From IMG/VR virus record IMGVR_UViG_3300013126_000010, positions 1 to 64,000 of that record: a DNA stretch of 64,000 nt. The stretch is one strand, 5' to 3'. Below are positions 6,426 to 31,158 of this stretch, one piece after another. Positions within the stretch are counted from its first letter, which is position 1, and each line of letters begins with the position of its first letter. The stretch comes from a virus. The notes under the pieces were generated by a model. That model was given only the letters and a program-made list of their open reading frames with translations. It ran no database searches and was not told the origin of the DNA. The position numbers and the translations under genes are program-made.

Positions 6426-7328
6426 ATGTTATTTAGCAAAGAATCACATGGTTACGTGTATAAATGGACCGAATTATCTACTTGGAAATGGTATATTGGT
6501 AGTCGAAGCGCGAAAAATTGTCATACAGATGATGGCTACGTTTGTTCAAGTAAAATAGTCAAACCATTAATTCAAAATAATCCAGAGAATTGGGTTAGAG
6601 AAATACTATGGATTGGTGAGAGGAATTATGCTACATTGGTTGAGTCAGAATATTTAACATACCATAATGCTGCATCAAACGAAATGTCATATAATCAACA
6701 CAATAGTGATTATAAATGGAATAATACTGGAAGAACAATGCCACAAACACCAGAACATATTATAAAAAGAACTAGTAAACGAATAGGTTCAACAGTATCA
6801 GATGATTCTAAAAGAAAAATGAGTGAATCTGCTAAAGGAAAAATTATTTCAGCGGAAGCACGTGCTAATATGTCGAAAGCACAGTATGGTAGGAAACATT
6901 CAGAAGATACAAAAAATAAAATAAGAAGTAAATCATTGTTACGTAGACACAGTGATGAAACTAAGCAATTAATTAGTGAAAAACATAAAGGACGACCATC
7001 TACCAGAAAAGGAACCACGTGTTCTATAGTCTCTAAGGAAAAAATGTCAATTTCTCAAAAGAACAAAAAGAAGGGTACATGTATTCACTGTGGCGTAGTA
7101 ATGGATATTTGTAATTTGAAAAAATATCACAATGACAATTGTAGGTTAATCAACCCAGATATAATCAGAAATCAACATAATAAAGGTATGATTGTTTCTA
7201 ATGAAACTAGAATTAAACAATCTGAAAAAGCTAAGAATAGAATAAAACTAATATGCGAACATTGTAACAAGTCGATCAATAAATCGGCATATACAAGATA
7301 TCATGGTATTAATTGTAAACATAAATAA
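6426..7328 (+). CDS. GIY-YIG homing endonuclease with NUMOD3 repeats and zinc fingers
   Basis: This is a probable free-standing (Seg-like) homing endonuclease. The N-terminus has a GIY-YIG-type core (GYVYKWTELSTWKWYIGSRS). The middle carries several NUMOD3 DNA-binding repeats (for example DSKRKMSESAKGK, SEDTKNKIRSKS and SDETKQLISEKHKG). Two C-terminal modules share the exact spacing Cys-x2-Cys-x12-His-x3-Cys (7080-7142 and 7254-7316) and look like zinc fingers. I prefer the ATG at 6426 because GGAGA lies 8 bases before it; an ATG at 6411 in the same frame has no ribosome site. The gene interrupts the neck cluster between gp13 and gp14. Confidence 0.85.
   Translation: MLFSKESHGYVYKWTELSTWKWYIGSRSAKNCHTDDGYVCSSKIVKPLIQNNPENWVREILWIGERNYATLVESEYLTYHNAASNEMSYNQHNSDYKWNNTGRTMPQTPEHIIKRTSKRIGSTVSDDSKRKMSESAKGKIISAEARANMSKAQYGRKHSEDTKNKIRSKSLLRRHSDETKQLISEKHKGRPSTRKGTTCSIVSKEKMSISQKNKKKGTCIHCGVVMDICNLKKYHNDNCRLINPDIIRNQHNKGMIVSNETRIKQSEKAKNRIKLICEHCNKSINKSAYTRYHGINCKHK
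7320..7327 (+). promoter_or_regulatory. Late promoter for gp14-gp15
   Basis: CATAAATA overlaps the last codons of the homing endonuclease and lies 20 bases upstream of the gp14 start. The neck genes therefore do not depend on endonuclease transcription. Confidence 0.65.
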
Positions 7329-11670: not shown

Positions 11671-12051
11671 TTAGATTGCTGACAAGATAATCAATGTTTC
11701 TGTTGAATCGTCTTGTAATGTCCAAGTATATTTGTGTCCAGTGAAATCAACTGCGTGATGTCTGGTTAATTTTTTTATAGCTACCGGACCTGTGCCAATG
11801 ATGATACCAACCAATGCGCCTTCACCAGCTAGTACACCAGTAGTTTTATCTACTAAAGTTACATTTCCAGATTGTGTTTGATCAATGCTTTCTACTTTAA
11901 ATTTTCTAGTAGCACGTTGTTTTAGAATGTATCCGTTGAATTGTCCTGCACCAACATTTGCAATAATTGGTAATGTGTTTCCTGTGTTTAAACCAGTTCC
12001 GGTACCTAAACCTACTTGTCCAAACCATTTTTTGTTAATCGGTCTTCCCAT
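11671..12051 (-). CDS. Conserved small virion-type protein
   Basis: A 126-residue protein starts MGRPINKKWFG and has a central KQRATRKFKVESIDQ strand. It resembles small uncharacterised virion proteins found next to structural genes in environmental T4-like phages. It has no catalytic motif and no membrane segment. The start has a good ribosome site (AGGAGA). Its late promoter lies inside the last codons of the neighbouring HNH gene, 69 bases upstream, and the leader contains a small GTGGT/ACCAC hairpin. A function cannot be given from sequence. Confidence 0.55.
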   Translation of the reverse strand: MGRPINKKWFGQVGLGTGTGLNTGNTLPIIANVGAGQFNGYILKQRATRKFKVESIDQTQSGNVTLVDKTTGVLAGEGALVGIIIGTGPVAIKKLTRHHAVDFTGHKYTWTLQDDSTETLIILSAI

Positions 12052-12115
12052 TTATTTTCTCCTATAATGAGTGTTCTATACTCTACGTGGTGGGTACCAC
12101 ATAAATCTGTAGACA

Positions 12116-12877
12116 TTAGTATTTATCTTTTTGTTTACAATTGTTATTATGGTATCGTTCATAAGCATTCATCGCTATTTCTTTACCACAATAAATGCAC
12201 AATTTAGTTGGGCATTTTCTTCCGCGTTGTGATTCTGCACGTTTTGCAACCATTTCTGGATCTTGTTTTCTTCCTATGGCTTTTTCTCGTATTTTATTTT
12301 TAGTTTCAGTGGATTGTTTTTTACCATACATATGGTTTTTTTCACCAGTTCGTGATTTTGATAAATTTTCTTTCCATTCGTCTGAAAATGGTTTTCGTAT
12401 TCTACCAATCATAGCTTGTTTCTGATTTATGTTTTCCTGTAACGGTTGAATTCGTCCTGTATTAGCAATCTTTATTTTAGCAATAGCTTCAGTGGTTTGC
12501 TTTTTACCATACATTGGGTTGTTAACTCCTGAAACCTTAGCGCTTTGTAATACGGAATATTCTGACTTAATTTTTTCATATACCTTACTAGTGATTTTGG
12601 TGTTATATCTATGTTGTGATTTATTATCAGCTCTCATGATTCTCATTGCATTGATCATTTTATAATATGCAATTGGGTCATTTTTGTGTATTTTGGTTAA
12701 TAACCAATGGCATATAAAATGCTCTCTAGCTGTTAGTCGCACCAAGTTTTCTTTTTTATTAGTACCTCCAAGGCTTTTTGGAATTATGTGATGTACTTCT
12801 ACATACGTTCCATCAATGAGTGTTCTGTTTTTGGCAGCTTCTGTAATCTGTTCATACCATATACTATATTTTGACAT
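12116..12877 (-). CDS. HNH homing endonuclease with NUMOD3 repeats and a zinc finger
   Basis: This is a free-standing homing endonuclease. The N-terminal domain carries the HNH signature (YVEVHHIIPKSLGGTNKKEN, then REHFICHWLL). The middle has NUMOD3 repeats (NPMYGKKQTTEAIAKIK and NHMYGKKQSTETKNKIR), and the C-terminus has one Cys-x2-Cys-x12-His-x3-Cys finger. That finger matches, spacing for spacing, the two in the GIY-YIG enzyme near 7 kb. I prefer the start at 12877 (MSKYSIWYEQI), which fits the family; an in-frame ATG at 12919 would add 14 residues. Neither has a ribosome site. The gene sits between the gp23 terminator and a small virion gene. Confidence 0.85.
   Translation of the reverse strand: MSKYSIWYEQITEAAKNRTLIDGTYVEVHHIIPKSLGGTNKKENLVRLTAREHFICHWLLTKIHKNDPIAYYKMINAMRIMRADNKSQHRYNTKITSKVYEKIKSEYSVLQSAKVSGVNNPMYGKKQTTEAIAKIKIANTGRIQPLQENINQKQAMIGRIRKPFSDEWKENLSKSRTGEKNHMYGKKQSTETKNKIREKAIGRKQDPEMVAKRAESQRGRKCPTKLCIYCGKEIAMNAYERYHNNNCKQKDKY
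12120..12127 (-). promoter_or_regulatory. Late promoter for the 126-residue virion gene
   Basis: The minus strand reads GATAAATACTAATG. It overlaps the last sense codons and the stop of the HNH gene, so the endonuclease coding end doubles as the next gene's promoter. Confidence 0.6.
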
Positions 12878-23164: not shown

Positions 23165-24349
23165 TTATAGTCCAGGTCTTCTTTGTAATCCAGCAAATGG
23201 ATCTGGACCATCAAAACGGGTTTTATATTGCTGAAGTTCCGCATTATTTAGTGTCAAATATCCGTCCTTGTCAGTAACTGGCATACCACTAACTCTCATA
23301 ATATTAGGATTATTTTTGTCAAATGTTATTTTATAAGTTTGGTCTTTATAAAGATCAACTATTTTTTGTTTTTCTGGTGGTAATGGGACAGCTGATGAGT
23401 TTGAGTCGTTATTAGCATTTGTTTTTGCTGGCTGTTCAGCTGATTGGGTAGGTGAACTATTAGTTCTAACAGCTCCTACACCAGTAGCTGCATTTTTGGT
23501 AATAGCATCTTTATTATTAGTGAAAAATGATTGAATCCATCCTCCAGCAGTTTCTGATATTTGGAATGTAAGTTGACCTGATGTACCTAAAAAGGTAGTC
23601 AATGAATCTTTCATGACATTATGAAAGAAATTCTGCCCAGCATCTGATTGTACGAATAAAATGAACAATGGTCCAGTTATACCACCTGATATCATTTTTG
23701 AAAACAGTGCAGCTATTGTAAATGGTGCTCCAGCAACTGAACCTAGTACTTTAGAACCAAGTTTTGCACCAGTAATTGCACCAAATATACCATATTGGCT
23801 TCCCAACGAACCACCAGCAACTGCTCCACCAATAGAACCAACAGCCTTTGGACCTTTTCCTAATAATGACCATATTACATCAGTTTTGGTTAACATTGGA
23901 CCAATTACTAACATACCTTCGCCTATTATTTCAGTTTTTGTTGATTCAAATTTTTGTTTAGCTTCTTCAGCTGACATATTTCCAAATATTTGAGTAGTAG
24001 TATCACCGTTTGAATATTTTTTATATTGTTCTTCTAATTCAGCATATTTTGAATATAACCCATACAAGAATGGAGCACCAACAATAGATTTTAATAATAA
24101 TCCATTTCCTTTTAATGATCCTATGACTGTTTTAGCAACAGCTTTAGCTGGTAATGATGCTATTATTTTAACAGTAGATAATACAGATTTAGATGCCACT
24201 TTTGGTGCGACAGCTGCAGCTTTAGCAGCGGTACCAGTGTTTCCAGCAACTTTACTACCACGGGTAATCAAAGATTTCCCAAAATTATAGATACCTTTCG
24301 CAACATCAGCTGGACCTTCATTTAATGGTTTAAATTCATCAAATCTCAT
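23165..24349 (-). CDS. Probable internal (packaged) head protein with capsid-targeting leader
   Basis: I do not recognise the main family. The N-terminus MRFDEFKPLNEG resembles the capsid-targeting sequences of T4 internal proteins, and LNE followed by Gly at residue 12 is an ideal gp21 cleavage site. After a basic stretch come many Ala/Gly-rich hydrophobic segments (for example LLLKSIVGAPFLYGLY, SIGGAVAGGSLGSQYGIFGA and GITGPLFILFVQS), which look able to insert into membranes, then a Pro/Asn-rich linker. A packaged protein ejected with the DNA, perhaps acting at the membrane, would fit. The ribosome site is AGGAAAT, with a late promoter 25 bases upstream. Confidence 0.5.
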   Translation of the reverse strand: MRFDEFKPLNEGPADVAKGIYNFGKSLITRGSKVAGNTGTAAKAAAVAPKVASKSVLSTVKIIASLPAKAVAKTVIGSLKGNGLLLKSIVGAPFLYGLYSKYAELEEQYKKYSNGDTTTQIFGNMSAEEAKQKFESTKTEIIGEGMLVIGPMLTKTDVIWSLLGKGPKAVGSIGGAVAGGSLGSQYGIFGAITGAKLGSKVLGSVAGAPFTIAALFSKMISGGITGPLFILFVQSDAGQNFFHNVMKDSLTTFLGTSGQLTFQISETAGGWIQSFFTNNKDAITKNAATGVGAVRTNSSPTQSAEQPAKTNANNDSNSSAVPLPPEKQKIVDLYKDQTYKITFDKNNPNIMRVSGMPVTDKDGYLTLNNAELQQYKTRFDGPDPFAGLQRRPGL

Positions 24350-24444: not shown

Positions 24445-24462
24445 AGGTCAATAAATTGACCT
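24445..24462. repeat. Inverted repeat, 8-bp arms
   Basis: AGGTCAAT and ATTGACCT are separated by AA. It may be a hairpin or a protein-binding palindrome. No reading frame uses the GGAGG next to it. Confidence 0.5.
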
Positions 24463-24469
24463 AATCTTC

Positions 24470-24515
24470 AATATTTCTCATCATTCGTTCGTTCCTCACT
24501 CATGTGAGAAATATT
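24470..24515. repeat. Inverted repeat, 11-bp arms
   Basis: AATATTTCTCA pairs perfectly with TGAGAAATATT across a 24-base loop that itself contains CTCAC/GTGAG. On the plus strand a T-rich run begins 14 bases after it. Confidence 0.5.
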
Positions 24516-24559
24516 TTGATTGTAGGGTTTTTTTCTTTTTATTTATTTACATGTATTAG

Positions 24560-24609
24560 AGAACAATATATGAAATTATTTAAAAATTATTAATGTTTTA
24601 TATTGTTCT
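24560..24609. repeat. Inverted repeat, 11-bp arms
   Basis: AGAACAATATA pairs perfectly with TATATTGTTCT across a 28-base, very AT-rich loop. This is the last element before the composition rises sharply at about 24640. Confidence 0.5.
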
Positions 24610-24640
24610 TATAATTATGGTTTAAAATACACATTACTAG

Positions 24641-25049
24641 ATTGTGGAGATGGATTGACGCTTGAATGACCAAGCGTCAAAAAAACTTTACTGAGTTGCT
24701 ATCGAAGTTCTAGACGGTAGGAATTTTTAGTGATGTTTCTCGTGATTCGGCTCTTAGCTGTACCGGTACCTACCTAGATTTTTAAGACCCTGCGCGTCAT
24801 TGGGTCATATCAGTCAACAAAACATCTGATGAAATAAATCATCCATGGATATTTCTATCCAACAACCTATACGATTACCGGAATGCTACTCAATGGTGGG
24901 AATGAGACATTTTAAGGCATCCTGAACCAAGATTCAGGGTAGACGGTAAAAGCCCAGCATTAGCGACTGGAATTGAGTACCTTATCACATCAGTAAGGAT
25001 TCCTCGGTGGAATAATGATCGGCCCACTAACCTTATGCTAATTTAGTGT
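24641..25049 (-). ncRNA. Candidate structured non-coding RNA
   Basis: No reading frame of useful length exists here on either strand, yet G+C is about 42% by hand count, against about 16% in the preceding 100 bases. Perfect or near-perfect helices include a 10-bp hairpin (24655-24680), an 8-bp helix (24887-24894 with 24972-24979), TGGATA/TATCCA (24846-24861) that has a GAAA tetraloop on the minus strand, CCTGAA/TTCAGG (24921-24938), GACCC/GGGTC (24786-24806), ATTCC/GGAAT (24999-25013) and GGTAGG/CCTACC (24716-24774). A promoter shared with gp55 lies directly upstream on the minus strand. The 3' end is uncertain. No tRNA, tmRNA, RNase P or group I intron core was recognised. Confidence 0.55.
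24655..24680. repeat. Strong hairpin in the non-coding region
   Basis: TTGACGCTTG pairs perfectly with CAAGCGTCAA across a 6-base loop. No T-run follows it on either strand, so it is not an ordinary terminator. Confidence 0.75.
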
Positions 25050-25106: not shown

Positions 25107-25559
25107 TTATAATTGATTGTTATATTCGATTTCTTCAATGGTTGGTTCGTTTACGTTAAATTTAACAGCCCCAATTTGCCCATTATAGAATTTTTTAGTA
25201 CCATCTGCAAGTCGGATTCTCATCACATCTTCCATTACTTGTGCCTTGACTTCTGCATAATATAAACTAGCTTTTGTTTTATGTAATGAACATATTTCAA
25301 ATCTATAATTACCAATGCCTTTTAATGCTATTTGTTCATTAAGTGCCTTACAACTTCCAGTATATTTTTTCCAGTCAGATTCTTTGTAGGTGATTTTTTT
25401 ATTCTTTTTACCTTTTACCGCTACTCTTCTCATCATTTTGAACTGTTTCTTTCCTAGATATTCTTTTCCAGTATCTAATTCAATAATTCTATAAATGAAA
25501 CCGAACCATTCTTCAGGATCAAAATCTTTCTTGACTATCCAATGTCCAGTATCATTCAT
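25107..25559 (-). CDS. GIY-YIG-type nuclease-like protein (SegE-like domain)
   Basis: A 150-residue single-domain protein. Its start FGFIYRIIELDTGKEYLGKK has the two strands of a GIY-YIG-like nuclease, followed by ESDWKKYTGSCKALNEQIAL and a helix with the conserved Glu region (SLYYAEVKAQVMEDVM). It lacks the NUMOD and zinc modules of the free-standing homing enzymes in this window, so it may be a domesticated nuclease rather than a selfish one. Its start lies inside the end of the AT-hook gene (8-base overlap), which points to coupled translation. The structured non-coding region follows directly. The substrate is unknown. Confidence 0.65.
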   Translation of the reverse strand: MNDTGHWIVKKDFDPEEWFGFIYRIIELDTGKEYLGKKQFKMMRRVAVKGKKNKKITYKESDWKKYTGSCKALNEQIALKGIGNYRFEICSLHKTKASLYYAEVKAQVMEDVMRIRLADGTKKFYNGQIGAVKFNVNEPTIEEIEYNNQL

Positions 25560-31086: not shown

Positions 31087-31124
31087 GGTGGTATCCTGGG
31101 TTAATAAAAATGATGACTCTATAT

Positions 31125-31158
31125 TTATTATATGTGTTCAACTTCATAAAAAAACAAC
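31125..31158 (-). promoter_or_regulatory. Early-type promoter for gp55
   Basis: The minus strand holds GTTGTTTTTTT, an 11-base gap, then CACATATAATAA, the same arrangement as ahead of the structured RNA. It is divergent from the gp48 late promoter 13 bases away. Confidence 0.65.

Follow-up and report, generated by a model that had tools for sequence, protein, structure and literature searches.

A predicted RNA of about 600 nt as a divergent member of a new structured RNA family in uncultured aquatic T4-like phages

The window, that is, the whole stretch of 64,000 nucleotides analysed here (64 kb), belongs to a virus record of 184,707 nt. Two of its leftward ORFs, one ending at 24349 and the other beginning at 25107, are separated by a gap of 757 nt. 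An earlier reading made from the letters alone (hereafter the sequence-only reading) had noticed this gap and had seen no useful reading frame in it; the longest ORF there has indeed 45 amino acids. The jump in G+C content that it described is equally real, from 16.5% at 24520-24640 to 41.3% at 24641-25049. The upstream neighbour is a gene for a SegE-type GIY-YIG endonuclease on the minus strand (25107-25559; Pfam PF19835, E = 7e-33), a protein that PHROG 447 and the GenBank copies mis-annotate as 'NAD synthetase'. The ORF on the other side (23165-24349, minus strand) encodes a protein with no match in Pfam or PHROG. Like the product of the gene that follows the RNA in most of the marine loci described below, it starts with M-K-(I/V)-x-E-(I/L)...NE(A/G)P, and such starts look, by their sequence, like the capsid-targeting leaders of internal head proteins. 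ARAGORN found no tRNA or tmRNA in the window, and a scan of it against Rfam 15 at gathering thresholds returned freshwater-2 only, elsewhere than the element. This RNA (12049-12126, minus strand; 54.4 bits, above gathering) sits at the end of an HNH-like ORF, before the next gene and near the major capsid gene.

Several helices proposed earlier for the G+C-rich part could be located exactly: a perfect 10-bp hairpin at 24655-24680, an 8-bp pairing of TACTCAAT (24972-24979) with ATTGAGTA (24887-24894) and, on the minus strand, the GAAA-capped hairpin GGAUA-GAAA-UAUCC at 24847-24860. While these named helices stand, the count of at least seven helices is by itself not above chance, the minimum folding energy being no better than that of dinucleotide shuffles on either strand (z = -0.30 for minus and -1.64 for plus); it is the homologues that exceed chance. 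Because the energy is no better than that of shuffles, structure could not be claimed from the single sequence and the proof had to be comparative. An RNA on the plus strand, which folds better and was at first favoured, was ruled out by the U-G pairs and compensatory changes presented below.

The promoter arrangement GTTGTTTTTTTC - 12 nt - CATATAATAAGTATA lies at 25087-25049 on the minus strand and predicts a 5' end near 25049. It had been described as shared only with gp55, and the sole other co-located pair in the 64-kb window does lie ahead of gp55 (31120-31158, minus strand), with equal spacing and one mismatch in each half. The gp55 gene itself was identified through the PHROG late sigma factor (E = 4e-77). 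A related phage contig (L008) has an equivalent pair ahead of its own gp55, and the contig carrying an orthologue of the RNA (L009) keeps the pair ahead of the RNA.

A second copy of the element (copy 2) is found in the window's own genome, on the same strand, at 162067-162790 (L004:4068-4790). Within it, 162285-162780 corresponds to the element up to the core: identity to the window copy (copy 1) is 86% over the 3' core and 68% over the 5' domain, the middle being different and longer, and 220 nt past the core are also shared at 85% identity. Copy 2 is flanked by a ClpS gene and an unrelated gene, with no nuclease gene beside it, and has its own sigma-70-like promoter; the phage-encoded ClpS adaptor (L004:4935-5237) is separated from it by a strong terminator and that promoter. 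The orthologue in L009 is syntenic and 88% identical, with flanks that diverge more, and was the only match in exact-pattern scans for the freshwater core. From the blocks common to copy 1, copy 2 and L009 we predict an ncRNA of about 600 nt at 24445-25049 on the minus strand. The extent of 24641-25049 given in the sequence-only reading was too small, since the part common to homologues runs on to about 24445.

The predicted RNA has several parts, all on the minus strand. The 5' domain (24911-25037) starts with CAUAAGGUURGUGGGCC and is matched by covariance model R1 at 24911-25036 (E = 1e-35). It covaries among the three freshwater sequences, with both-sided changes on the minus strand in three helices. 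Two such changes are seen in each of P3 (24980-24998; CCUUA/UAAGG, which is CCACG/CGUGG in copy 2), P4 (24953-24971; UCCAGU/GCUGGG, which is CCUACU/AGUAGG in copy 2) and P5 (24921-24938; the loop varies and is GUAA in L009). Helix P2 (25007-25027) pairs GUGG with CCAC in the window and GCGG with CCGC in marine members, a compensatory change from U-A to C-G between the freshwater and marine forms. P4 also contains two U-G pairs, possible on the minus strand only. The middle domain (24828-24907), which holds the GAAA-capped hairpin, is replaceable: copy 2 has an unrelated longer sequence here. Between copy 1 and L009 a G-C pair of the hairpin changes to A-U and the loop from GAAA to GUAA, keeping the GNRA form on the minus strand. 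The 3' core (24640-24812; model R2, E = 2e-41) is made of a GACCC/GGGUC hairpin, a GGUAGG/CCUACC helix, the 10-bp hairpin and CAAUCUAG. Two C-G pairs of the 10-bp hairpin change to U-G, a standard pair on the minus strand only. Closing hairpins (24445-24514) are formed by ATATTTCTCA..TGAGAAATAT at 24471-24514 and AGGTCAAT/ATTGACCT at 24445-24462, and their element AGGTCAATAAATTGACCT is identical in copy 1, copy 2 and L009. The covariation and the G-U pairs are the reason for assigning the RNA to the minus strand.

Model R1, built from the 5' domains of copy 1, copy 2 and L009, was searched against records carrying a related major capsid gene. It gave weak matches in two marine-type records, each exactly 3' of a homologue of the window's GIY-YIG gene. 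The 19-nt RNA start, CATAAGGTTGGCGGGCCAG, is present in at least 120 IMG/VR contigs, 80 of which we examined; a few of the pattern matches are due to chance (for example L197), and 'marine' is our label for this large group rather than a habitat checked contig by contig. Blastn of 50 gp23-related records yielded chance matches only, the relatives there being reached by the covariance model alone, and blastn of the window element and the marine form against GenBank phages gave no match. The 19-nt pattern retrieved nothing but one chance match, in Labrys, from GTDB genomes, and model R3, which is marine-only, found no RNA in eight isolate phage genomes. We also rejected as chance a match inside a Serratia phage gene (L291) and a weak second match in G053 (L287), which is coding sequence. 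Many uncultured aquatic T4 relatives carry this large, elaborately folded RNA, and the window holds one divergent copy of it. In three contigs (L143, L188 and L192) the 5' domain is kept and the cores differ. In L192 (IMGVR_UViG_3300021375_002768) the 5' domain begins at 7223 and is followed by a different 3' part; a lambda-J-like tail gene among its neighbours indicates that phages outside the T4 type have the RNA as well.

The larger marine set gives the structure its statistical weight. For the 5' domain, with 25 pairs in 44 sequences, the paired fraction of cells is 96.1%, against 85.2% after shuffling and 28-47% with partners slid, and both-sided changes occur in 136 cells against 46 in shuffles. 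In a tree-based test that we devised, several pairs also score above all the nulls. In the marine core (49 sequences, 24 pairs) 99.3% are paired, against 98.7% after shuffling and 22-45% with partners slid. The first 19 alignment columns are invariant by construction, as the loci were gathered with that pattern, and are excluded from all covariation claims for the marine set. Pair U34-G68 is found in 44 of 44 sequences and U77-G136 in 40 of 44; on the opposite strand both would be A-C. Such U-G pairs, present in all or most sequences, identify the minus strand of the window as that of the RNA. The homologues thus show the covariation on which the sequence-only reading had made its proposal depend, and they share no reading frame: arm lengths vary and the middle domain is replaced. 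Marine members too end in hairpins, of 8-9 bp and widely different sequence.

Models built separately from the freshwater and marine forms find each other's RNAs. Of 41 marine loci, the freshwater-only R1 matches 27 precisely where the RNA begins, with just one other match elsewhere. Conversely, R3 matches copy 2 (E = 1e-4 to 1e-3) and L009 (E = 1e-4 to 2e-4) at the RNA start; in a scan of the 64-kb window it missed copy 1. R2, built from the freshwater core only, has 13 matches in the 41 marine loci, 11 of them at equal offset in the marine core; these are weak singly (E = 0.3-2.7) and together not chance. The 3' core of the window can be aligned with the marine core in part only. From this reciprocal finding we conclude that the freshwater and marine RNAs are one family, and that the window encodes a conserved ncRNA is close to certain.

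Gene order around the RNA is conserved: gp47, gp46, small ORFs, the GIY-YIG gene (or a RusA-like resolvase) and the RNA, followed by either an internal-protein-like gene or a tail gene in convergent orientation. In the operons of L141 and L211, gp46 and the GIY-YIG gene are separated by radical-SAM-like genes, recognized by eye from their motifs. A rival reading is that of an element acting in cis, which would form a structured 3' end on the GIY-YIG mRNA or would be a leader or switch controlling the late gene behind it. In 51 marine loci the UAA within CAUAAGG is also the stop codon of the upstream ORF, which leaves no space for an intervening promoter. The gene 3' of the RNA is often an internal-protein-like gene on the same strand, preceded in 24 of 53 loci by a late-type site, (A/T)ATAAATA, and the nearly constant GIY-YIG neighbour would also allow a link in cis. 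However, the window RNA has its own promoter, copy 2 lies beside other genes, and the upstream genes are various (GIY-YIG, RusA-like resolvase and unknown ORFs, and one contig has a lambda-J-like tail gene). In L188 and L211 the gene 3' of the RNA points the opposite way, making a leader role impossible there. Moreover, the cis elements of 3' UTR or leader kind that we know of are far smaller and less conserved. A role in cis is therefore unlikely. Given that different genes lie upstream, that the gene behind the RNA may face the opposite way and that a second copy lies elsewhere, we favour action in trans, which we hold to be probable.

Somewhat less likely again is a ribozyme or self-processing RNA, with the conserved core as active site, that would possibly cleave itself at the junction with the stop codon to free its 5' end. 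The 5' boundary against coding sequence is sharp in the marine loci, but this start is partly an artefact of collecting loci by the 19-nt pattern. The marine core has long conserved unpaired stretches and probably holds a pseudoknot, with helices GUAGGU/ACCUAC, AGCC/GGCU and GGUCA/UGACY. The first of these is backed by both-sided changes; for the other two the changes are all one-sided, to U-G. An RNAalifold helix, GUAGGUU/AAUCUAC, was rejected, being broken in L137, L144 and L153, which keep GUAGGU/ACCUAC. For Pb and Pc, helices of the marine pseudoknot, no counterpart could be found in the window copy. No Rfam ribozyme or intron model matches, and neither Rfam, ARAGORN nor the search for a split gene identified a group I or II intron or a tmRNA at the locus. 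The locus is not an intron, because it is syntenic rather than mobile and splits no gene.

The position of the RNA also suggests a guide or partner of the adjacent GIY-YIG protein or resolvase, by analogy with TnpB/IscB. A GIY-YIG homologue is directly upstream in 67 of the 73 marine loci with an ORF there, and a RusA-like resolvase in 3. The constant nuclease pairing of OMEGA/HEARO-like guides was nevertheless not seen, as copy 2 has no adjoining nuclease and the RNA is missing from the phages Melnitz, phiM12, phiN3 and S-SRM01, although each has the GIY-YIG homologue. Neither was a guide-like variable end observed, and the locus is syntenic, not mobile, so that we regard this link as quite improbable. 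Lastly, the G+C-rich stretch could be a patch or repeat that arose by chance and has no role as RNA. This would agree with a folding energy not below that of shuffles, but is refuted by the compensatory changes, the reciprocal model matches and conservation above that of the flanks.

No family was matched when the element was searched against the Rfam covariance models: at E <= 10 it gave two chance matches to lncRNAs, far below threshold, and four loci with relatives gave, at E <= 1, one chance match outside the element. A literature search, with most subscription journals outside its reach, found no description of the RNA. The proposal that the minus strand encodes a dedicated structured RNA, of no known class and with a gp55-type promoter, is thus supported by homologues, covariation and the Rfam negatives. 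The compensatory changes over many helices in homologues are those expected of large structured phage ncRNAs, and this is a new family within that known kind. To our knowledge, very few large structured RNAs of bacteria and phages have been described, with functions that are mostly open.

GOLLD and ROOL, to which the element had been likened, often lie near tRNA islands and assemble as RNA-only oligomers (nanocages). GOLLD is a large structured phage RNA from aquatic sources, with a conserved end, a variable part and an unknown function (PMC12286853). The window RNA is likewise large, phage-borne and aquatic, with conserved and variable parts; unlike GOLLD, it has its signature at the 5' end, no tRNA in the window and a family setting beside gp46 and GIY-YIG genes, and it lacks a covariance-model match. 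ROOL is a phage RNA of similar size, elaborate, with pseudoknots and no known protein partner (PMC12286853). The window RNA is about equal to it in size and also elaborate, with a probable pseudoknot in the marine form, but again has no covariance-model match and differs in sequence, gene setting and domain plan. The likeness is therefore one of size and phage setting, an analogy and not membership: the RNA may work like GOLLD or ROOL and belongs to neither. The structured RNAs manA, wcaG and PhotoRC-II of T4-like marine phages (PMC2864571) are short, many of them in putative 5' UTRs, and are in Rfam, whereas the present family is large, has changing neighbours and matches none of them. Freshwater-2 (RF02980), although in the same genome, is a short cis-regulatory family with no sequence relation to the RNA.

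Taken as a whole, the best explanation, to which we give a probability of about 0.72, is that a new family of multi-domain phage ncRNAs, about 500-600 nt long, has a divergent member in the window. The RNA would be transcribed leftward from the gp55-type promoter near 25049, which would time it to the preparation of late transcription. The freshwater copies would use their own promoters; in most marine relatives, where the RNA abuts the stop codon of the gp47-gp46-GIY-YIG operon, it would probably be cut from that transcript or read on from it. Its fold would consist of two conserved parts, the 5' domain and the core, with replaceable arms linking them and the closing hairpins at the end. We infer that the RNA is made in stable form and works in trans at the middle-to-late change. 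There it might serve as a particle scaffold, RNA-protein or RNA-only in the manner of GOLLD and ROOL, a mechanism that we propose tentatively. More speculatively, it may represent a new class of phage RNA machine, a particle scaffold or a catalyst, on which many T4-like phages of aquatic habitats would depend for the middle-to-late switch or for building the capsid. With its wide distribution in aquatic T4-like phages, its fixed place in the genome and its rich covariation, the family is open to immediate modelling and has a structure and a role that are directly testable, and it could join Rfam as a new family and then be recognisable in existing metatranscriptomes.
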